From positions 1 through 11,590 of the forward strand of contig JALGWK010000052.1 in assembly GCA_025774205.1 (NCBI GenBank): a stretch of 11,590 nt of DNA, read 5' to 3'. Made by a program: the position numbers and the translations under genes. The stretch comes from a bacterium. Its GTDB lineage: Bacteria > Blakebacterota > Blakebacteria > Blakebacterales > Blakebacteraceae. The notes beneath the pieces were generated by a model. The model did not search any database. It worked only from the letters and a program-made list of their open reading frames with translations, and was not told the origin of the DNA. Shown here in pieces: positions 1 through 11,511 of the stretch. Each line of letters begins with the position of its first letter. Within the stretch, counting starts at the first letter, position 1.

Positions 1-263
1 ACGAACTTGGTGTCGGGGCTGACGGTGACCACGTCGCAGCCCATCTTGTCGAACCGCGGCTGCTGCTCTGCCAGAGCAGCGAACTCGGTTGCTCAGACGA
101 AGGTGAAATCGGCACGGTAGAAGAAGAGGATCGTCCAGCGCCCGTTCTTCTTCTGCTCCGCCATCGAGAAGGTCCCGAAGTCCTTCTTCGTCGGCTCAAA
201 GGTGTCGATCTCGAAATCGGGTACGGACTGGCCCAGCCGCAGCCCGGTCGGGGTGTCGCTCAT
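1..263 (-). CDS. Selenocysteine-containing peroxiredoxin (AhpC/TSA family), 3' part outside window
   Basis: Thiol (here selenol) peroxidase that would reduce H2O2 or organic hydroperoxides in the cytoplasm. Seen: ATG at 263 with AGGAG seven bases upstream (271-275); residues 1-56 read as a peroxiredoxin N-terminus (GQSVPDFEIDTF, then WTILFFYRADFTFV). Codon 57 (95-93) is TGA, exactly where the family has its peroxidatic Cys in PxxxTxxC. The same frame continues as ATEFAALAEQ, then CDVVTVSPDTKF, which matches the usual sequence after that Cys. Residues 1-87 and part of codon 88 are visible; the resolving Cys and catalytic Arg regions lie outside. The Thr three residues before the active site is kept, but the conserved Pro seven residues before it is Arg (residue 50). 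A hairpin follows the TGA. Known: Sec peroxiredoxins (PrxU of Eubacterium acidaminophilum) exist. Inferred: Sec is inserted at 57. The alternative is a point-mutated pseudogene (TGC or TGT to TGA), which the hairpin and the intact downstream frame argue against. Confidence 0.88.
62..95 (-). promoter_or_regulatory. Bacterial SECIS element (UGA plus hairpin) in the peroxiredoxin gene
   Basis: In the mRNA the UGA (95-93) is followed by a 12-nt linker and then a perfect stem: GCUGCUCU (80-73), loop GGC (72-70), AGAGCAGC (69-62). The apical loop begins 20 nt after the UGA and opens with GG. Known for bacterial SECIS elements: a stem-loop lies directly downstream of the UGA inside the coding region, with a small apical loop carrying G in its first two positions, and is bound by SelB. 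Spacing and loop fit. The stem encodes the ordinary peroxiredoxin stretch AALAEQ, so protein and RNA constraints overlap. No folding energy was computed. Confidence 0.82.
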
Positions 264-325
264 CAGTTTTCTCCTCTGTATAGCTGATATTCCCAGGGTT
301 TCATTCTGTATCGTTCGTGGTGCCA

Positions 326-366: not shown

Positions 367-3120
367 TCAGAAGATAATCCGCACTCCGAGATTGATCGTT
401 CGCGGCGTCCCGTAGTACCAGGAGCGGTCGTAGTGATCGCTCCACCCGGTCGCTCCCGGCCGGGGACCGTCGGCTCGACCGGAATCGGCGAACACCGCCC
501 GCACATTCCGGCGGTCGGCGATGTTCCGGATGTCTGCGAAGAGGCTCCAGACTTTACCGAGGATCACGAAGTCGCGATAGATCCTCAGATCGAACTGACT
601 CATCCAGGGCAGACGCCCGGAGTACGTCTCGCCCGGCACCCCGTTTTCGACAGGCGTATACGGCCAGCCGCTGGATGCCTGCCAGGTGAGTCCGGCACTC
701 AGACGTTCGAAGGGTTTGATGCCGAGCACCTCCGGACCGACTCCCCTCGGTACCATCAGGCTCATGATGGCTCGGAGGCGATGCGGCCTGTCCCATCGGG
801 AGACATGCCGCCGGAAATTCGTTTCCTCGATCGTGTACTGTCGATGATACCCTTCCAGCAGATAATCCTGGTTGGTCTCGGTCCGCGTAAACGAATAGCG
901 CACGCGGGCGCTGAAATGGTCACTGTATCGTTTCGAGATTGTGCATTCGAAGCCGCTGGCGCTCAGGAAGCCGCTGTTTACGACGACTGAATAATCGATC
1001 GGGAAGGGATACGAGAGGCGATCCTCCGGCACATGGATACTGCCGGCGAGCAGACTCGTTCGCTTGCCCCACAGGGTGAGCTCGAGAGCCAGGAACTCGG
1101 TCAACATCTGCTTGAAACCGAGTTCATACTGGCTCGATTTAGCGGGATCGAGGGTTGGATTCCCGGCTACTCCCTCCTCGCCAACCAGATACCCGTCATG
1201 CCCGATCCAGAAGGCGCGGTACTCGGGCAGCTGGTGGAAAGATCCATAATTTCCATAAATGACCGCCTGTGGATTGATCGGGTGCGAAACACCGATCCGG
1301 GGAGCTAAGGCCGTTCTGAGGTTATTCCCCCTTTTAATAGGATAGGTTGGACTGAACGGATCACTCCAGAATGGGTGGTACTCTCCGAAGTAGTCAACTC
1401 GTGGTATCGGTATCACTCCGGACCTGTTGTACCAGTAGGGCGTATCAGGGATGAACCAGGCATCGTACCGGATCCCCAGGTTCACGATCACCTGCTCAAA
1501 CTCCAGCTTGTTCTGTATGAAGAGGCCCAGCTCCCACGGACTCTTGCGGAAGTGAGTCCGAAGTTCGTCCTGGTAAGGACGCTGGTGGTCGAGCAGTTCG
1601 AGGGAGAGTTGGTTGTACTCGACACCTGCCTTGACCTGGTGGTGGGTTGAGACCTGGGCGGTGATAGCCCCCTTGATGATGCGGGTGATGTCGTACTGGT
1701 TCTCGTAGTAGCGGTCCGAGCCGGTGAACACCATGTCGTACAGATTGAACGGCGCGTACCGGTGGCTCGGATCATCGACATAGGGACCCGGTTCGAGGGT
1801 GACCATGGTCATGTCATCCCCCGGCTGCCACACCGGCTCCAGACCGGCCGCCAGACGGTCCTGGTTGTTCAGTCGAGAGGCGTGGTACCCGGCGTCATTG
1901 AGCCAGCGTTCCACCCGCATCGTCCGCCGGTAGTCGTGGTAGGCCGCCCTGATCGAGTAGAAGGCGGCCTGGCTCAGCTGATGGGTCCAGACGGCCGAGA
2001 ACCGCTGGTTCTGTACTTCCACGATATCCGTTTCGTTCCGGAAATCGACGAACCCGGTCCCGTTGATGAGATCGGCGTCATCGTTGAGGTCACCACCCGC
2101 GACCGTGAGGCCGAAAGTCCAGGCATCCTGGATCTCCTGCGGGATCCCCCACTGCTGGGTGTACCGGAACCCGGGATCGAAGGGCGCGCGCCGCGATTCG
2201 CTCCTCACCGCCGTGAATGAGAGCTTCTGGCTCGGGGTGAGCTTCCAGGTAGTATTCAGCGTCCCCGACCAGTCATTGTGGAAACCGTACCCGATCCAGC
2301 CCGCCAGCAGATCCCCGCCCCAGATCGGCAGACCATCCGGTCCAGTCTGTTGGTAGAAGTCGGCGGGATCATAGACAACGCCGGGTATCTGCAGGGAATC
2401 TCCGAGGACGGCATCGTAAACGACGTCATCTTTCTCCACCAGGTAGTCTCGGCGGGTTGAAGACATGGCTGACAGGTGGAAGGTGAGCTTGTTCGATCCG
2501 ATGAGCGGGCCACCGAGGAAACCCTCGAACCGGGTGAGATCCCGGAAGTCGTCACGGGGATCACCGGTCAATTCAGAGGAGGCCAGCTCCAGGCTCCCCT
2601 CCAGTTGTCGGCCGCCCTGGCGGGTGATGAGATTGACGACTCCGTCGAGAGCATTGCCGAACTCGGCACTCATACCCCCCTCCATGATGATCATCTCGGC
2701 GGCGCTGGAAGGAGCAACCGACACGGCCATCCCACCAAAGGTCAGGTTGGTCACCTGCATGCCGTCGATCATGAAGGCTGTGCCCGTCGACCGTCCGCCC
2801 CGGAGATGGACATGATCGAAGCCCCTCTTCCCGTCGGCGGTCGGCAGAGCTCCAAGATCGTCTGTCACAACCTCGACATGTGACTGCAGACGCAGGATCT
2901 CGAATACTGTATCAGCCGGTATCTCCGCGTCCATATCCCATACCTGTCGGACCGGGCGAGCAGGCGGTGAAGCGCGGGTCTGATCGATACCTGCCTCTAT
3001 CGAACGGAGGTAGCTGAGCACTCTGGCTGTGGCTTGATAGAGGGAGACACAGCCGCCCGGCGGCAGACCATTCGACCTGGCATTGATCGTGACCGGAGTG
3101 GCAAGCAAATGGTCGAGCAT
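367..3120 (-). CDS. TonB-dependent outer-membrane receptor (plug and barrel), unusual N-terminus
   Basis: Outer-membrane 22-stranded beta-barrel type receptor with an N-terminal plug, expected to import a ligand using TonB/ExbBD energy; the substrate cannot be told from sequence. Seen in the 917-residue frame: plug from about residue 65 to 168, with DTVFEILRLQS, HLRGGRS (105-111), MIDGMQV (117-123) and EFGNALDGVVNLITRQGG (153-170). The barrel runs from about 175 to the end, rich in aromatic residues and alternating strands. It ends in GVRIIF with a terminal Phe, as BAM-assembled barrels do. Odd: residues 1-60 match nothing I recognise, and there is no signal peptide, no carboxypeptidase-like regulatory domain and no clear TonB box. 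ATG 3120 is the only standard start after an in-frame TAA (3174) and has no ribosome site. A good site (3144-3148) instead serves an out-of-frame ATG at 3134. The 5' end may therefore carry a frameshift (see findings). It lies 205 bases after the efflux genes on the same strand, and co-transcription is possible. Confidence 0.88.
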   Translation of the reverse strand: MLDHLLATPVTINARSNGLPPGGCVSLYQATARVLSYLRSIEAGIDQTRASPPARPVRQVWDMDAEIPADTVFEILRLQSHVEVVTDDLGALPTADGKRGFDHVHLRGGRSTGTAFMIDGMQVTNLTFGGMAVSVAPSSAAEMIIMEGGMSAEFGNALDGVVNLITRQGGRQLEGSLELASSELTGDPRDDFRDLTRFEGFLGGPLIGSNKLTFHLSAMSSTRRDYLVEKDDVVYDAVLGDSLQIPGVVYDPADFYQQTGPDGLPIWGGDLLAGWIGYGFHNDWSGTLNTTWKLTPSQKLSFTAVRSESRRAPFDPGFRYTQQWGIPQEIQDAWTFGLTVAGGDLNDDADLINGTGFVDFRNETDIVEVQNQRFSAVWTHQLSQAAFYSIRAAYHDYRRTMRVERWLNDAGYHASRLNNQDRLAAGLEPVWQPGDDMTMVTLEPGPYVDDPSHRYAPFNLYDMVFTGSDRYYENQYDITRIIKGAITAQVSTHHQVKAGVEYNQLSLELLDHQRPYQDELRTHFRKSPWELGLFIQNKLEFEQVIVNLGIRYDAWFIPDTPYWYNRSGVIPIPRVDYFGEYHPFWSDPFSPTYPIKRGNNLRTALAPRIGVSHPINPQAVIYGNYGSFHQLPEYRAFWIGHDGYLVGEEGVAGNPTLDPAKSSQYELGFKQMLTEFLALELTLWGKRTSLLAGSIHVPEDRLSYPFPIDYSVVVNSGFLSASGFECTISKRYSDHFSARVRYSFTRTETNQDYLLEGYHRQYTIEETNFRRHVSRWDRPHRLRAIMSLMVPRGVGPEVLGIKPFERLSAGLTWQASSGWPYTPVENGVPGETYSGRLPWMSQFDLRIYRDFVILGKVWSLFADIRNIADRRNVRAVFADSGRADGPRPGATGWSDHYDRSWYYGTPRTINLGVRIIF

Positions 3121-3325: not shown

Positions 3326-6300
3326 TTATATCTCCTGCTCGACCGGGGGCGCGGATCCTTCCTTCATGAACAGAGCCAGACCGCCGACCCAGCGACGGGA
3401 ACGGTTCTGGATCCCGTCAACCAATTCATAGACGATCGGGATGATCGTCAGGGTGAAGAAGGTCGCGACCGGCAGGGCGATGCAGATCGTGAAGGCCAGC
3501 GTGTACCACATGTCCTGCCCCTCACGGGCGCCTATGAGGAGCGGCATCAGACCGATCACGGTGGTGAAGGTGGTCATGATGATCGGGCGAGCCCGTTCGC
3601 GGGCAGCCCGGATCACCGCCTCGCGGCGTGACAGGAAGGTCCGCAGGTGGTTGATATGGTCGACGAGAATGATCGAGTTGTTGACCACGATCCCCCCCAT
3701 CAGGATCACGCCGACATAGGCCGACTGATCGAAGCCCTTGTCGAAGAACCAATAGCCGAGGAATACCCCCATCAGCGCCAGCGGCACGGTCAGGATGATC
3801 GTGAAGGGGTGGAAGTACGATTCATAGAGCGATGAGGTCAGGATGTAGACCAGCAGGACCGCGAAGGCCAGCACCAGTTCGAGCTGCTTGCGATCCTCCG
3901 CGCTCTGCCAGATCCGCTCACTCTCATCGAATTCGTAACCGTTGGGCAGGATCATGGTGTCTATGACTTCTTCCCGCACCCGCTCCCCCATCCGGTAGGG
4001 TCCGCGGAACTCGTACGCCACGGTCCGGGTGTACTGCTGGTCCTTCCGCTCGATCCGGTCCATGACCTTCTCGACCGAGATCGTGCTGACGTCCCTCATT
4101 CGCACCCGGTTCCCGGAGTAGGTGGAGACCATGGCGTTCTCCAGCTCAATGACATCCCGCTGGTCGAAACCCTCGACCTTTACCAGGAAGTCGATATCCT
4201 CCCCGCCGTAGGTAACTGTTCCACGGGAAGAACTCGTGACGTACTGGGAAACGAAACTCACCATCTGCTGAGACGTGAGGCCATATTCCGCGAGAGCGTC
4301 ACGATCGAAGCGGATCACGATCTGCTTCTCCCGTCCGCCGCTGTAGCCGCCATAGTTGGTATCGATGTCCCGGATTCGGGGATTGCGAAGGAGCCGGTCA
4401 CCCAGTTCCTCGGCCAGTTCCTTGACCTTGAGATAGTTGTATCCAAGCATGGTGATCCGGGAACTGTAGCTTGTGCCGCCGAATCCGCCGGTCGCGAAGT
4501 AGTCGCCGAAACCGGAGATGCTGATCCGTACCCCCCCCATCAGGCTGGCGAACACCGAGAGCTGATCCTTGAGCAGGTAGGGGAAGCCCTGCCGCTCGAC
4601 CTCCTCGGGGAAACTGATTCGGATGTTGGAGGACTGCGCGCTGATATTGGTGACGAAGTCCTCCAGCTGTCCCGCTTCGTAGAGCGGGATAAGTTTCGAT
4701 TCGAACTGGTTGACCAGTGTCTCCATCACATCGAGGTCCGATCCGGTCGGAGCGCCGATCGATACACTCAGGTACTCCGTCCGGTCGCCCCCGAAACTCC
4801 AGACCCTTCCCTTGGTGACGTACCGGTCGAAAAAGTGGACCGAGACGGCGAAGGCGAGCACGACCGTGATGAGTACCAGTACGCGATGCTTGAGCATTGA
4901 CCGCAGGACGCGCTGGTAGAGATTGTCACCCAGTTTCAGAGTGTGCTCGGCGCTTCCGGTTCCGACTGATCCGACTTCTTCCGCCTCCTTCTCCAGCTCC
5001 CCCTGCGCCCATGGATCCTCGTCGGATTTATTGGTGTCCCCACCCTTCCCGTGACCGCTGATCGATCCGAGCGCACGCGCGGCCAGGCTCGGGATCAGGG
5101 TGAACGAGACCAGCAGCGAACAGGCGAGACTCACCACCACCGCCATGGCGAAGGGGACATACATAACGCGCAGTTCGCCCTGCAGATAGAGGAAGGGCAA
5201 AAAGACAATGATGGTGGTGGCGGTGCCGGCCAGGATCGGCAGCATCATCTGGGCGGTCCCGAGGCTGGAGGCCATGAGCCTGCCGCTCCCCCGCTCCCGG
5301 TGCCGGTGGATGTTGTCGAGCACCACGATCGAGTTGTCGACCATCATGCCGAGCCCCAATGCCAGCCCGGCCAGGGTCATCATGTTCAGTGAAGCGCCGG
5401 TGAAATAGAAGATGGAGATTGTGAGCAGGACACTGGTGGCGATGCTCGACAGGATGATGATCGGATTGGCGATTCCGCGCAGGAAGACCAGGAGCACCGC
5501 GAAGATGAGGAAGACGATGATGATGCTCCTGAACTCGAGTCCTTCGAGTTCGTTCCGGATCGTCTCGCTCTTGTCCTGTTCCTCGATCAGCTCCGTCCCG
5601 GGGGGGAGTGACTCCCGGATCTCCTCGATCATCAGCTTGGTACGATCGGCGACATCGATGATGTTGCTGCCCGAAACGGCGTTGACAGTGAGCGAGACCC
5701 GGGAGCGCCCGTTCAGGCGCTGGTAACCCCGCGGTTTCGCGTACCCGTCCACGATCATCGCGATCTCGCCGAGCCGGATGTAACGGTCCCCTCGCCGGGC
5801 GACGATGACCTCCCGCAGGGAGTTGATCTCGTCGAAATCGTCCCTGACCACGAGGTTGAATTGATCGGTCCCCTCGTGCACCGTGCCGACCGTCGTTACG
5901 ATGTTCTGGATCTGTCGGAGCTGACTGGATACCTGCTGCCGGTTGAGTCCGAGAGATTCGACCTTGTTCTCGTCCAGCACCACCCGCATCTGGCGCATTT
6001 CGCCCCCCTGCACCATCACGTCAGCGATTCCCGAGACGGTCATCAACGGTCTCTGGATAAGTTCCTCACCCAGCCGCTGAAGCTCGTTGACGTTGAACAC
6101 TCCGGTCAAGGTGTAGCGGAGGAGGAAATCGGTCTGACGTTGAACGTCAGGCGGTACATACTGGGAGACGCTGACCCTCACCTGCCGGGGCAGATCTTCC
6201 TGCAGACGGGAGATCTTCTCGTTCAGCTCCAGCCGCGTGAAATCCATGTCGGTATCGGGGGCGAACTCCAGGGAGATCCGGCAGCTGCCCCGGGTAGAGA

Positions 6301-6556
6301 TGCTCGTAACCTCTTCGATGCCGCGCAGGGTACTCGACTCGGCCTCAAGCGGAGCGGTGACGAAGGCCTCAATAGCTTCCGGGCTGGTATCTGGCCAGGA
6401 GGCTGAGATGGTCATCCTCGGGATGTTCAGGGTCGGGTAGGTCTCCAGCGGGATCGAGAGTAGTGAAGCCACGCCGAGAACGATCAGCGCCAGGAAGATC
6501 ATCGAGGTGGTGACGGGCCTTTTCAGGCAGGTATCGGTCAGCGGCGAATGCTTCAC
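3326..6556 (-). CDS. RND efflux permease, AcrB/HAE-type, second of tandem pair
   Basis: Inner-membrane proton-driven exporter subunit of 1076 residues, the usual size for AcrB-like pumps. Seen: TM1 at about 15-35 after an LKRPVTTSM start; first periplasmic porter/docking region about 40-335; TM2-6 about 342-495 with the TM4 motif GLALGLGMMVDNSIVVLDN (397-415); a charged, acidic cytoplasmic linker (500-545); TM7 about 558-575; second periplasmic region; TM8-12 about 892-1045 with GGIVVNNSIILVDHI. In TM4 only Asp407 is kept (AcrB Asp408 position is Asn408), and the AcrB Lys940 position in TM10 is Asn959. Start is GTG at 6556, overlapping the TGA of the preceding permease by four bases; GAGGTGA at 6567-6561 is a good ribosome site. 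The overlap implies coupled translation and fixed stoichiometry with its partner. Substrates unknown. Family assignment is firm; the drug, lipid or metabolite role is open. Confidence 0.95.
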   Translation of the reverse strand: MKHSPLTDTCLKRPVTTSMIFLALIVLGVASLLSIPLETYPTLNIPRMTISASWPDTSPEAIEAFVTAPLEAESSTLRGIEEVTSISTRGSCRISLEFAPDTDMDFTRLELNEKISRLQEDLPRQVRVSVSQYVPPDVQRQTDFLLRYTLTGVFNVNELQRLGEELIQRPLMTVSGIADVMVQGGEMRQMRVVLDENKVESLGLNRQQVSSQLRQIQNIVTTVGTVHEGTDQFNLVVRDDFDEINSLREVIVARRGDRYIRLGEIAMIVDGYAKPRGYQRLNGRSRVSLTVNAVSGSNIIDVADRTKLMIEEIRESLPPGTELIEEQDKSETIRNELEGLEFRSIIIVFLIFAVLLVFLRGIANPIIILSSIATSVLLTISIFYFTGASLNMMTLAGLALGLGMMVDNSIVVLDNIHRHRERGSGRLMASSLGTAQMMLPILAGTATTIIVFLPFLYLQGELRVMYVPFAMAVVVSLACSLLVSFTLIPSLAARALGSISGHGKGGDTNKSDEDPWAQGELEKEAEEVGSVGTGSAEHTLKLGDNLYQRVLRSMLKHRVLVLITVVLAFAVSVHFFDRYVTKGRVWSFGGDRTEYLSVSIGAPTGSDLDVMETLVNQFESKLIPLYEAGQLEDFVTNISAQSSNIRISFPEEVERQGFPYLLKDQLSVFASLMGGVRISISGFGDYFATGGFGGTSYSSRITMLGYNYLKVKELAEELGDRLLRNPRIRDIDTNYGGYSGGREKQIVIRFDRDALAEYGLTSQQMVSFVSQYVTSSSRGTVTYGGEDIDFLVKVEGFDQRDVIELENAMVSTYSGNRVRMRDVSTISVEKVMDRIERKDQQYTRTVAYEFRGPYRMGERVREEVIDTMILPNGYEFDESERIWQSAEDRKQLELVLAFAVLLVYILTSSLYESYFHPFTIILTVPLALMGVFLGYWFFDKGFDQSAYVGVILMGGIVVNNSIILVDHINHLRTFLSRREAVIRAARERARPIIMTTFTTVIGLMPLLIGAREGQDMWYTLAFTICIALPVATFFTLTIIPIVYELVDGIQNRSRRWVGGLALFMKEGSAPPVEQEI

Positions 6557-9500
6557 AGGATCACCTCGCGCTCAGTCGCCGGGGTGGAGGGGTCGTACGA
6601 CTCCGAGCGACTCTCCAGCTTGTTGCCCCTCAGGCTCTCGATCAGGGAGTAGACGACCGGGATCACGATCAGGGTGAGCGCGGTGGCCGAGAACTCTCCA
6701 CCGATCACGGCGATCGCCAGGGGTCTCCTCAGTTCGGCGCCGGCGCCGAACCCGATCGCCATCGGGGTAAGGCCGAGGATCGTCGTGACCGTGGTCATCA
6801 GCACCGGTCGGAGCCGGTAGTGGCCGGCCTCGACAATCGCCTTTCGGAGACAACGGTCTTTAGCCCGGAGCTGATTGATGAAGTCGACCTTGATGATGCC
6901 GTCGTTCACCACGATACCAGTCAGCACGACCATGCCGACCAGGCTCATGATATTGATTCCCGCTCCGAAGAGCTTGAGCCCGAACACTACCCCGATCGCG
7001 GCCAGCGGCACGGTCGCCATGATCGTGAAGGGATGGAGGGGACTCTCGAACTGGGCGGCGAGGATCATGTAGACAAGCAGCACCGCCATCAGGAGCGCGA
7101 AAAAGAGACTGCGGAAGGACCGTCGCATCTCTTCGTTGACGCCTCCGACAACCACCTCGTACCCCTCGGGGAGAGGCATGTCCACCACCAGCCGTTCCAC
7201 ATCGGCGATGGCGTCATCAAGCCGGCGTCCCTCGACACTGGCGAAGGCGGTTATCTGCCGGTTCTGGGACTCCCGCCTGACCTCGTTCGGGCCGGTGGTG
7301 TAGGTCCACTCCACCAGCTCGCGCAGCGGAACACGGAACTCGGTTCCACCCTGCCCCGCCACAGGGATGCCCAGGTTGAGAATATCCTGGAGCGTCTTAT
7401 CCTGGCTCTCTCCCTCCCGGACCAGGATATCCACCTTCCGGTCGAAGTCCTGGTAAGCAGTCGCCACTTCGCCCTGGATGGTCGAGCGTACCAGGTCGAC
7501 CACGTTACTGACCGACAGGCCGAACTGTTCTATCACCCGATGATCGACCGAGAGTCGGATCTCCGGCTTTCCGATCGCAAAATCGATATGGATGTCGCGC
7601 AGTCCCTCGACCCCCTGTAACTGCTCTTCAATCCGGCCAACGATTGCCTGAAGCGTATCAAGACGCAGACCCCGCACCTTGACCGCCAGATCGGCCTGGC
7701 TGGTCCCGAGAATCTCGCTGAAGGTCGTCTCGCCGGCACTGAAGGTGAGTTCCGCGCCGTAGAGGGCTTCTCCCCGGGTTCTCATTTCGGAGATGATGTC
7801 GAATGTTGATCGCTGGATATGGCGGTGGAGGCGCACCCGGAGGCTGGCCGTGTTGATGTCGGAATCCTGACTCCCGAGAGCGCTCTCGCTCCTGATGAGG
7901 CCGGCGTTCAGGAAGACGTGTTCAACCTCGGGCATCTCGAGCAGCCACTCCTCCATCTGTCCCGCGACCGCGGCAGTGGTCTCCAGATTGGTGCCCGGGG
8001 GAAGGACCATATCGATGCTGAATTCACCCTGGTCGACCTCCGGGATGAGCCGTTTATCGAGACCGATCCCGATCCAGACGGATACGGCTACCAGGACCAG
8101 CGCGATAGCGACGACGGTGCCCCGGTTATCGAGGGCGAGTTCCAGGACCTCATGGTAGAAGACCGAAAAGCGGTTGAAGGCGGTGTCGAAGAGGGTGAAG
8201 AGCGGTCGGGTCACAGTCCTGGTGAATCGGAAAATCACCTTCAGTGCTGTGGCAGCCCACCTCACCATAATTCTGACTACCGCCCGGACTCCCCGGAGGA
8301 TGATCCGCAGGAGCCACCAGAGGAAGGTGAAGAGCATTCGGAAAGGCCGGATGACGACCTTCAGAATCTTGCTGACGATACCCGGCGGGCGGCCAGGTTC
8401 GGTGAAGGGTGCGGCTTCGCCAGCCTGACCTTCGGCCGCTGCTGCCGCCTCAGCGGATTTCCGGTCGGCATCCTCTTTTTCTTTCATGAAGACATCCATG
8501 TGGAGGAAGCGGCTGGCAAGCATCGGCAGGAGGGTGAGCGACACGATCAGCGAGCAGAGCAGGCTGAAGGTCACCGTGAGGGCCTGGTCGCGGAAGAGCT
8601 GTCCGGCCACCCCCTCGATGAACATGATGGGAAGGAAAACGCTGATGGTGGTGAAGGTCGAGGCAGTGACCGCCATGGCGACCTCCTGCGCTCCCTTGCC
8701 GGCGGCGGTGAACCGGTCCTCTCCCATCTCGCGGTGTCGGAAAATGTTTTCGAGAACCACGATCGAGTTGTCCACCAGGAGCCCCACCCCGAGCGCGAGC
8801 CCCCCCAGGCTCATCATGTTCAGGGTAATGCCGGAGAAGTAGAGGAGCGAGAAGGTGGCGATGATCGAGATGGGGATCGCCATACCGATGTTGAGGGGAT
8901 TCCGGATGTCGTGCAGGAAGAAGAAGAGGATCAGGAAGGCGAACAGACCGCCGAGGGCGATCGCCCAGATGACATTCGAGATGCTGCTGTTGACGAAATC
9001 GGCCTGATCGAACGCTACCGCAACCGCCAGACCCGGGTACTCCCCCTCCAGTTCAGCCAGCACCTCCAGGACCCGCGAGGAGACCTGGCTGGTGTTGGCG
9101 CCGGCCTCCTTCTGCACCAGGATACCGATCGATTCCGCGCCGTTGAAACGGGTCAGGTTGTCCCGCTCCCGGTATCCGTCGACGACCTCGCCTACATCGG
9201 CCACGGTCACCAGCCGTTCACCCCGGCGGGCGACTACGACCTTTTCGATATCCTCAACTGACTGGAAATCACCAACCGGTCGCAGGTACCACTGGAACCG
9301 ACCCCGGTTGATGTTCCCGCCCATGGAGACCGCGTTCGCAGAGGCCAGGGCACGCTGTATCTCCTGCAGGGTGATCCCAAGGGACTCGACGATCTCCCGA
9401 TCGACCTCCACCCGGATCTGCCGGTCGCTGCCGCCGGTCACTGCCGCCAGAGCGACTCCGTCGATCTGTTCGAGGCGTCGCTTCACCACGTTCTCGGCCA

Positions 9501-9963
9501 GCCCCTTGATCTCGGCCAGTCCGCCCCGCCCCGACACCGCCAGGCTCATGATAGGTTCAGCGTTCGGATCGGCCTTCAGGATGGTGGGACGTCCGGCCAG
9601 GTCAGGCAGCGAGTTTCTGAGGATATCGAGCTTCTCCCGGACATTGAGCATCGCATACTCCATGTCCGCGTCCCAGTTGAACTCGAGCGTTACCAGGCTC
9701 ACTCCCTCGCGGGAAGCGCTGTGCACCTCCCGGATGCCGGGGACCTGCATGACCTGCGACTCGATCGGCTCGGAGATGAACTGCTCGACTTCCTCCGGCG
9801 AGACGTTGGTGTAGGTGGTCCAGATCACCAGCCGGGGGAACTGCAGGCTGGGGAAGAGATCGACCGAGAGCCGGCTGAAACTGATGACCCCGATCAATAC
9901 CACCGCCAGGAAGAACATCGTCGTGGCGACCGGGCGCTTTATCGAAAGTTCAGATACGTGCAC
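6553..9963 (-). CDS. RND efflux permease, AcrB/HAE-type, first of tandem pair, with long central insertion
   Basis: Inner-membrane RND exporter of 1136 residues, longer than typical AcrB homologues (about 1030-1050). Seen: SIKRPVATTMFFLAV start with TM1 about 12-30; porter/docking region about 35-330; TM2-6 about 332-487, with LGVGLLVDNSIVVLENIFRH (391-410) in TM4; central segment about 490-610; TM7 about 614-634; second periplasmic region; TM8-12 about 951-1110. In TM4 Asp398 is kept and Asn399 replaces the second Asp. In TM10 the AcrB Lys position is Asn1020, followed by Asp1021, with Lys1025 further on. The central segment has an Ala/Glu-rich linker (500-520) and an Arg-studded amphipathic stretch (537-598) that accounts for the extra length. 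Start is GTG at 9963 with GGAGG four bases upstream (9968-9972), 17 bases after the adaptor stop. With the diverged second permease it recalls MdtB/MdtC heteromeric pumps; a heterotrimer is inference. Substrate unknown. Confidence 0.95.
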   Translation of the reverse strand: MHVSELSIKRPVATTMFFLAVVLIGVISFSRLSVDLFPSLQFPRLVIWTTYTNVSPEEVEQFISEPIESQVMQVPGIREVHSASREGVSLVTLEFNWDADMEYAMLNVREKLDILRNSLPDLAGRPTILKADPNAEPIMSLAVSGRGGLAEIKGLAENVVKRRLEQIDGVALAAVTGGSDRQIRVEVDREIVESLGITLQEIQRALASANAVSMGGNINRGRFQWYLRPVGDFQSVEDIEKVVVARRGERLVTVADVGEVVDGYRERDNLTRFNGAESIGILVQKEAGANTSQVSSRVLEVLAELEGEYPGLAVAVAFDQADFVNSSISNVIWAIALGGLFAFLILFFFLHDIRNPLNIGMAIPISIIATFSLLYFSGITLNMMSLGGLALGVGLLVDNSIVVLENIFRHREMGEDRFTAAGKGAQEVAMAVTASTFTTISVFLPIMFIEGVAGQLFRDQALTVTFSLLCSLIVSLTLLPMLASRFLHMDVFMKEKEDADRKSAEAAAAAEGQAGEAAPFTEPGRPPGIVSKILKVVIRPFRMLFTFLWWLLRIILRGVRAVVRIMVRWAATALKVIFRFTRTVTRPLFTLFDTAFNRFSVFYHEVLELALDNRGTVVAIALVLVAVSVWIGIGLDKRLIPEVDQGEFSIDMVLPPGTNLETTAAVAGQMEEWLLEMPEVEHVFLNAGLIRSESALGSQDSDINTASLRVRLHRHIQRSTFDIISEMRTRGEALYGAELTFSAGETTFSEILGTSQADLAVKVRGLRLDTLQAIVGRIEEQLQGVEGLRDIHIDFAIGKPEIRLSVDHRVIEQFGLSVSNVVDLVRSTIQGEVATAYQDFDRKVDILVREGESQDKTLQDILNLGIPVAGQGGTEFRVPLRELVEWTYTTGPNEVRRESQNRQITAFASVEGRRLDDAIADVERLVVDMPLPEGYEVVVGGVNEEMRRSFRSLFFALLMAVLLVYMILAAQFESPLHPFTIMATVPLAAIGVVFGLKLFGAGINIMSLVGMVVLTGIVVNDGIIKVDFINQLRAKDRCLRKAIVEAGHYRLRPVLMTTVTTILGLTPMAIGFGAGAELRRPLAIAVIGGEFSATALTLIVIPVVYSLIESLRGNKLESRSESYDPSTPATEREVIL

Positions 9964-9980: not shown

Positions 9981-11333
9981 TTACGGGGTGAGAACATCCG
10001 GGGGAACGACCTCGGTCAGCACCACCGGTGAGTCATGCTGCAGGCTGACATGTCCCTCGATGCAGACCAGCATTCCCGAGCTGACACCCGCGTGGGGATC
10101 TTCGGTGGGGAGTACGATGACATGGGTGTCGTTTGACTCACCCAGGATCACGTAGCGCCACTTGACAATGTCGGGCCTCTCCTCGTCTTCCGATTCCACC
10201 ACCGCGAACACCAGCGTGCGGTCATCACGTTCCACGATAGACTCGTGCGGAACCATCAGTACGTTCTCGATGTCGCGGGAGAAGATCCTCGCCCGGGCGA
10301 ACATCCCCGACGTGATCCTACCCTCGGGATTGTCGAGTTCGAGGCGGACCTTGCCGGTCCGGGTCTGGGAGTTGATGATCGGATTCACCGATATCACCGC
10401 CCCCTCGAACACCTCCCCGCGAAGGGCGGTGAAGGTCACTTCCGCCCGGCGGCCCGACCTCAGGGGAGAGATCTCGCTCTCAAGCACGTCGACCTCCACC
10501 CGCACCCGACTCAGGTCAAGCAGGGTCAGCAGGGCCGAGCTGCCGCCGATATACTGCCCCTCGGCGACCTCGATGTCCGCGATCCAGCCCGAGAAGGGAG
10601 CCTTGACACTCGTCAGATCGAGATCGCGCCGGGCCCGCTGCAGGGCGATCCGTGACTGGGTGAGATTGGCCTGCTGGATATTGCCCCGTTCGAATCCGGC
10701 CAGGATTCGCGCGGTCATGTACTCCAGCTCGATCTCCTGGAAGGCCGTCTGGCTCAGTTGATTGTTCTGGTACTGCTGCTCCGCCAGCCGGTAGCGGCGC
10801 TCCACGTCGGCATACGCCTGCTGGTCCATGGTCGGCCGGGGGACCTCGAGCCCTTCCCGCTCAACCGTATCCCGCTCCTCGTAATTGGCGGCATAATCGG
10901 CCTGGGCCTGCAGGTAACTGGCCTGGGCTGTCTCCAGGGCCAGCAGGTAATTCTCCTGATCGAGTTCCATCAGGACCGCCCCTTCCCGGACGAAATCTCC
11001 CTCCTTCACCCGGAGCCGGTTCAGGATTCCGTTGACCTGGCTGACCACCCCGACCTGCCTCAGGGGCTGGGCCCGCCCTTCGGCGTGGACCGTCTGGATC
11101 AGGGTCCCTTCCACCGTGGGAGTAGCCCGCACCGGGATCGGATCGAGGCCCCGGAAGAGCCCTTCGACCGCCTCCGCCCTGTCACCGGCGGGCACCTGGG
11201 CGGCGCCGGTGGGAGTGCCTTCGGCTTCTTCAGCCTTCCCCTTCTGGATCCGGAGATACACCGCGGTCCCGATTGCTCCGAGGATCACGACAATGAGGAG
11301 GAACTTCAGCAATGACTTAGCGCGCAGTGCCAT
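9981..11333 (-). CDS. RND efflux periplasmic adaptor (membrane fusion protein, HlyD/AcrA family)
   Basis: Periplasmic adaptor of 450 residues that would connect the downstream RND permeases to an outer-membrane channel. Seen: uncleaved-looking N-terminal membrane anchor (LLKFLLIVVILGAIGTAVYL, 8-27) after a basic start and no lipobox Cys; first lipoyl half-motif GILNRLRVKEGDFVREGAVL (102-121); helical hairpin about 126-238, rich in Gln/Ala/Glu; second lipoyl half VKAPFSGWIADIEVAEGQYI (243-262); beta-barrel about 275-350 with VNPIINSQTRTGKVRLEL; membrane-proximal domain about 355-445, ending GHVSLQHDSPVVL. I chose ATG 11333 because GGAAAGGG (11347-11340) sits six bases upstream and the anchor begins at once. 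The in-frame ATG at 11495 would add 54 residues with no signal features that run through the inverted repeat. First gene of the pump operon; no TolC partner is encoded in the window. Confidence 0.93.
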   Translation of the reverse strand: MALRAKSLLKFLLIVVILGAIGTAVYLRIQKGKAEEAEGTPTGAAQVPAGDRAEAVEGLFRGLDPIPVRATPTVEGTLIQTVHAEGRAQPLRQVGVVSQVNGILNRLRVKEGDFVREGAVLMELDQENYLLALETAQASYLQAQADYAANYEERDTVEREGLEVPRPTMDQQAYADVERRYRLAEQQYQNNQLSQTAFQEIELEYMTARILAGFERGNIQQANLTQSRIALQRARRDLDLTSVKAPFSGWIADIEVAEGQYIGGSSALLTLLDLSRVRVEVDVLESEISPLRSGRRAEVTFTALRGEVFEGAVISVNPIINSQTRTGKVRLELDNPEGRITSGMFARARIFSRDIENVLMVPHESIVERDDRTLVFAVVESEDEERPDIVKWRYVILGESNDTHVIVLPTEDPHAGVSSGMLVCIEGHVSLQHDSPVVLTEVVPPDVLTP

Positions 11334-11357
11334 CGGTATCCCTTTCCTGATTCGGTC

Positions 11358-11410
11358 TCGCCGGAGGCCCGGAAACGTAGCCACTGTGCTACGTTGAGGA
11401 CATCCGGCGA
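11358..11410. promoter_or_regulatory. Nested inverted repeat in the leader of the efflux operon
   Basis: Two perfect 8-bp arms are nested. The inner pair is AACGTAGC (11374-11381) and GCTACGTT (11388-11395) around a 6-base spacer. The outer pair is TCGCCGGA (11358-11365) and TCCGGCGA (11403-11410). They are separated by asymmetric 8- and 7-base internal segments. It ends 25 bases before the adaptor start codon. The inner 22-bp palindrome has the size of an operator for a dimeric (for example TetR- or MarR-like) repressor, common for RND operons. As RNA it would form a two-stage hairpin close to the ribosome site. No U-run follows on either strand, so it is not an intrinsic terminator. Confidence 0.6.
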
Positions 11411-11465
11411 AAGCCAACGCCGTCGGCCGGATGCCAGTACATACCGCAGCCGGTGGCTTACTCTG

Positions 11466-11477
11466 ACAGGCTCCTGT
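11466..11477. promoter_or_regulatory. Short 12-bp palindrome upstream of the efflux operon
   Basis: ACAGG, two bases, CCTGT. It is perfectly palindromic apart from the two central bases and lies in the same non-coding gap as the larger repeat. It could be half of a regulator footprint or chance; no -35/-10 pair that I trust surrounds it. Confidence 0.2.
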
Positions 11478-11511
11478 AGGTAAAGCGAATTTCATGTCCG
11501 TTCCGCGTGAC

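Follow-up and report, generated by a model that had tools for sequence, protein, structure and literature searches.

A predicted selenocysteine-containing, AhpC-type peroxiredoxin from a deep bacterial lineage groups apart from PrxU

The window analysed here, a stretch of 11,590 nucleotides that makes up contig C164 of a genome assembled from metagenomic data (3.09 Mb; completeness 86%, contamination 4.8%), opens within a peroxiredoxin gene encoded on the minus strand, whose reading frame begins at an ATG (263-261) preceded by a ribosome-binding site. The features of the locus are as follows.

271..277, minus strand: ribosome-binding site AGAGGAG, 7 nt before the ATG, read directly from the sequence.
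1..263, minus strand: 5' part (codons 1-87) of the selenocysteine (Sec)-peroxiredoxin gene; the remainder lies on contig G000:C225:1-466.
93..95, minus strand: UGA codon 57, predicted to place Sec in the FTFVU motif as the peroxidatic (CP) residue.
62..80, minus strand: SECIS upper stem-loop GCUGCUCU-GGC-AGAGCAGC, with 8 bp and a 3-nt loop whose first base is G, lying 20 nt 3' of the UGA.
367-3120, minus strand: outer-membrane beta-barrel/TonB-plug-like receptor, upstream of the peroxiredoxin gene.
3326-6556 and 6553-9963, minus strand: two AcrB-type RND pumps, upstream.
9981-11495, minus strand: HlyD-type adaptor, upstream.

Translation of positions 263-3 on the minus strand yields MSDTPTGLRLGQSVPDFEIDTFEPTKKDFGTFSMAEQKKNGRWTILFFYRADFTFV-U-ATEFAALAEQQPRFDKMGCDVVTVSPDTKF, with a single TGA (95-93) that follows 56 residues and past which the frame remains open up to the end of the window at codon 87, the coding frame being intact on both sides. 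The end of C164 and the start of C225 share an exact overlap of 114 bases, and the joined gene encodes 204 residues, stops at a TAA and closes with ...TNTACPSKWKDDGDVDLQPGAEMVGKVYEALNQ, a C-terminus containing the resolving-Cys motif ACPSKW. An overlap of this same length also joins the two contigs encoding SelA, as fits the k-1 overlap of an assembler, which argues that C225 is the graph neighbour of C164 and no chance match, although for a gene split over two contigs such an overlap by itself leaves room for another neighbour at that assembly node. The gene order 3' of the peroxiredoxin gene in C225 is colinear with that of a contig from the same genus (L068) which holds the whole gene unbroken, and the window protein is 77% identical over 204 amino acids to the product of this same-genus gene (L068/L038).

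The outer-membrane and RND genes of the window fit the Gram-negative host surmised in the first-pass annotation. The receptor and the nearer of the two pumps do not lie beside the peroxiredoxin gene on the same-genus contig, and, the upstream order not being common to both, we claim no operon link. Among the genomes compared, the family of the source genome counts four in all, and the next relatives share no more than its domain, indicative of a deep lineage. A distant DNA search in plasmids retrieved only a weak ahpC stretch.

Among 80 relatives in named genomes from many phyla, codon 57 is UGA in 75 and Cys in 4, the site being missing from one fragment, and the motif shared by the clade reads FVUATEF. 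Such a distribution bears on the reading of the gene as an ordinary Cys peroxiredoxin, now a pseudogene, whose catalytic codon was lost to a nonsense mutation or to a sequencing or assembly error. A single change from TGC or TGT to TGA would suffice at codon 57 and the metagenome assembly does break within the gene; the same UGA, however, recurs in these independent relatives, whose frames are intact, the genome of the same genus has it as well, the SECIS element covaries and the genome holds a full Sec machinery (see below), all of which make an error or a decayed gene extremely unlikely. The residues 3' of the UGA are conserved as strongly as those 5' of it, the resolving-Cys motif included. 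This conservation also speaks against the possibility that the UGA and its hairpin act chiefly as a selenium switch, through regulated termination that would release a short product of 56 amino acids and little full-length enzyme; UGA always competes with termination in Sec decoding, but we see only a very slim chance that termination is its principal role here. The resolving Cys is absent from six relatives and from a paralogue of the source genome on contig C355, so that one-Sec variants exist. In the six relatives, which are mainly myxococcal (L135, L137, L138, L140, L141 and L142), Ile takes its place (EGIPxxW).

The hairpin behind the UGA complies with every constraint of a published bacterial SECIS model, which specifies a loop of 3-9 nt with a G in its first two positions, a stem of 4-16 bp, a distance of 16-37 nt from the UGA and a minimum free energy (MFE) of -7.5 kcal/mol or lower (PMC13188914); the corresponding values in the window are 3 nt (GGC), 8 bp, 20 nt and -19.7 kcal/mol. 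The latter value, obtained for a 45-nt segment, corresponds to a z-score of -1.88 relative to shuffled sequences, which is weak on its own. Across 69 distinct sequences, 99.6% of the pair cells of the stem hold standard pairs, while slid versions of the stem pair in only 15-64%, and 12 cells show changes on both sides of the stem against a mean of 1.1 in shuffles, none of 500 of which scored as high; all of these two-sided changes come from the six related rows just named and thus represent few events. In these rows AEQ has given way to AGL in the protein and the stem is nevertheless still paired (U-A to C-G; U-A to G-U or A-U), a pattern indicative of selection acting on the RNA. None of the four Cys forms (L097, L112, L130 and L144) retains an intact hairpin, its stem being broken or gone. 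It is this comparative evidence, rather than the z-score of a single sequence, that carries the case for the UGA and hairpin as predicted decoding signals. Most of the first-pass annotation, made from the window alone, thereby withstands scrutiny: the frame does reach a UGA at the catalytic Cys codon and continues as peroxiredoxin with a hairpin behind it, the extension that it called for below position 1 gave a full-length frame with no sign of decay, and the alignment with Cys homologues that it suggested separates UGA forms from Cys forms devoid of the hairpin.

All four components of the Sec decoding pathway, selA, selB, selC and selD, for which the first-pass annotation had proposed a search, were found in the genome. 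Its tRNA-Sec (65.9 bits, anticodon UCA) is 97% identical to that of a genome of the same genus (G001) and 96% identical to that of a genome of the same family (G003), and is thus native to the genome and no contaminant. SelB was matched with 313 bits (342.7 when its neighbour in frame is included), SelA is encoded across the two overlapping contigs mentioned above, and SelD is in two pieces, the N-terminal one of which (L035; G000:C412) itself carries an in-frame UGA (246-244, minus strand) at the catalytic Cys position, in the motif CAGUASK. With this machinery present and the frame undecayed, none of the testable observations that the first-pass annotation had listed against its own reading came true.

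Besides SelD, six distinct genes matching the AhpC-TSA family (PF00578) carry a UGA at a redox Cys, namely the window gene, the paralogue on C355 and four genes for thioredoxin-fold proteins with hairpins behind the UGA:

L004 (C364): in-frame UGA at the redox Cys, motif WUPPC.
L030 (C491): the same, motif WMUGAC.
L031 (C513): the same, motif FPTUGGC.
L032 (C461): the same, motif SFTUPPY.

The occurrence of UGA within several genes of one genome might be taken for a genome-wide reassignment of this codon to Trp, Gly or Cys, such that the residue in question would not be Sec. UGA is, however, the normal stop of long ordinary genes, two of them inside the window (the beta-barrel receptor and one RND gene), in all seven UGA-containing genes the codon stands in the place of a catalytic Cys and is followed by a hairpin, and the tRNA-Sec has a UCA anticodon; reassignment thus has next to no probability. 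We scanned 557 kb from further contigs of the genome (C1-C100) for codon bias and hairpins; no TGA there combined a two-sided coding signal of the level seen in the window with a hairpin, and no convincing new case emerged, while the same procedure does recover the seven known UGA genes. An initial guess that the selenoproteome might be very large was thus not supported. The selenoproteins of this genome seem to be modest in number, with thioredoxin-fold proteins prominent among them; in an independent genome of the same genus, about half of the 16 PF00578 matches carry a UGA. Taken on its sequence and genomic context, the gene is, almost certainly, one for a 204-residue AhpC-type peroxiredoxin of typical 2-Cys architecture whose UGA-57 would be decoded as Sec by the machinery of the host and the SECIS element.

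The first-pass annotation had further assigned the protein to the PrxU type of selenoperoxiredoxins; a peroxiredoxin with a peroxidatic Sec it appears to be, but the assignment to PrxU did not hold. The protein unambiguously matches PF00578 (110.3 bits; gathering cut-off, 26) and, like PrxU, the selenocysteine peroxiredoxin of Eubacterium acidaminophilum (Sohling et al. 2001, as cited in PMC13188914), has a peroxiredoxin fold, a peroxidatic Sec in a TxxU motif and a hairpin behind the UGA. Its match to the NCBIfam PrxU model NF040737, with an E-value of 2.4e-49, nevertheless reaches only 168.1 bits where the equivalog cut-off is 270, and it likewise remains below the cut-off of the AhpC model TIGR03137 (173.7 versus 272 bits). 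Each of the 26 clade members scanned gave a match to both models; the lowest E-values, 6.8e-59 (PrxU) and 1.7e-63 (AhpC), correspond by extrapolation to about 200 and 215 bits, and no scanned member should therefore pass either cut-off. In phylogenetic analyses, the window protein falls in a clade of 83 rows (78 Sec, 5 Cys; support 100/98) that adjoins Cys rows with a CPTE motif and inside which a few changes from Sec to Cys have occurred, while PrxU rows form another supported group, with Cys lineages in between. This second group includes the C355 paralogue (L034; UGA 3174-3172, minus strand), a true PrxU scoring 389 bits with the NCBIfam model, in which Thr replaces the resolving Cys (EATPSGW) and the Pro of the PxxxTxxU motif is retained. 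Score, tree and the presence of a genuine PrxU in the same genome combine to leave a slim chance that the window protein is an ordinary member of that family. With AhpC the protein shares the overall fold, an FYPADFTFVC-type motif and the C-terminal CPxKW resolving-Cys motif, but it has Sec for Cys followed by Ala (UATE in place of CPTE). On sequence grounds, the window protein is thus a member of neither NCBIfam family but of a separate, strongly supported Sec-AhpC clade, which we define by tree position, the UATEF motif (FVUATEF) and a GCUGCUCUGGCAGAGCAG-type SECIS element, the window gene displaying all three. The root of the tree not being known, two gains of Sec and a single old Sec followed by many losses are both compatible with it. 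The Global Ocean Sampling survey reported 253 "Prx" TxxU selenoprotein sequences of pfam00578 (PMC2398784), a set lumping together all TxxU peroxiredoxins; likened by description, they have the same domain, motif and Sec position as the window protein, and may well include members of the Sec-AhpC clade.

The closest relatives of solved structure are AhpC from Salmonella and E. coli, the AhpC entry PDB 1yf1 being matched with an E-value of 3e-45. A fold predicted for the same-genus protein, with a pLDDT of 82, is likewise nearest to AhpC of these two bacteria, with TM-scores of up to 0.95 by target length. The active-site motif PxxxTxxC/U retains Thr54 and U57 (FTFVU) but not its Pro, which is replaced by Arg at codon 50 (114-116, minus strand) in both members of the genus (RADFTFVU). 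This Pro is conserved in nearly all peroxiredoxins. The two species use different Arg codons (CGT and CGG), and the residue, fixed in both although their proteins are 77% identical, is thus no sequence error; Pro is found in the other clade members with a readable motif. Given that the profile and fold scores are unambiguous, we take the change from Pro to Arg as a lineage-specific departure, one that could lower peroxidase activity.

By analogy with the well-established mechanism of AhpC, a catalytic cycle can be proposed, in which Sec insertion, substrate, electron donor and oligomeric state are all putative. UGA-57 would be decoded as Sec by SelB, SelA, SelD and tRNA-Sec, as directed by the SECIS hairpin immediately downstream. 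Sec57 would then reduce H2O2 or an alkyl hydroperoxide and be oxidized to a selenenic acid, which the Cys of ACPSKW would resolve as a selenenyl-sulfide, across the dimer as in AhpC-type enzymes, before a thioredoxin/thioredoxin-reductase pair re-reduces the enzyme and closes the cycle. The choice of donor is a lean only: a thioredoxin-reductase-like gene is present on C383, and no full-length AhpF, the partner of AhpC, was found in the genome, which is weak evidence at 86% completeness. It is plausible that Sec raises the putative peroxidase reactivity of the enzyme.

Sec-peroxiredoxins are already known as a kind, and the branch described here, the constraint on its RNA and its Arg are modest news. 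Gene callers truncate the window enzyme to 56 residues or miss its start, and the present NCBI equivalog models name neither the window protein nor its relatives above their cut-offs. For these reasons, selenium-dependent peroxide defence is probably both widespread and under-annotated, extending over Nitrospirota, Acidobacteriota, Planctomycetota, Krumholzibacteriota and Myxococcota as well as the deep lineage studied here. A bolder proposal, which we regard as tentative and rather unlikely in its entirety, is that AhpC-type peroxiredoxins acquired Sec independently of PrxU and gave rise to a family spanning several phyla, part of whose protein sequence is dictated by the SECIS element, and that Sec made the near-universal active-site Pro dispensable in this deep lineage, where an Arg close to the selenolate would adapt the enzyme to a different substrate or pH. 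The clade supplies natural pairs, Sec with the hairpin and Cys without it, in which the benefit of Sec to a peroxiredoxin can be studied, together with a naturally occurring replacement of Pro by Arg within a motif regarded as important for catalysis.
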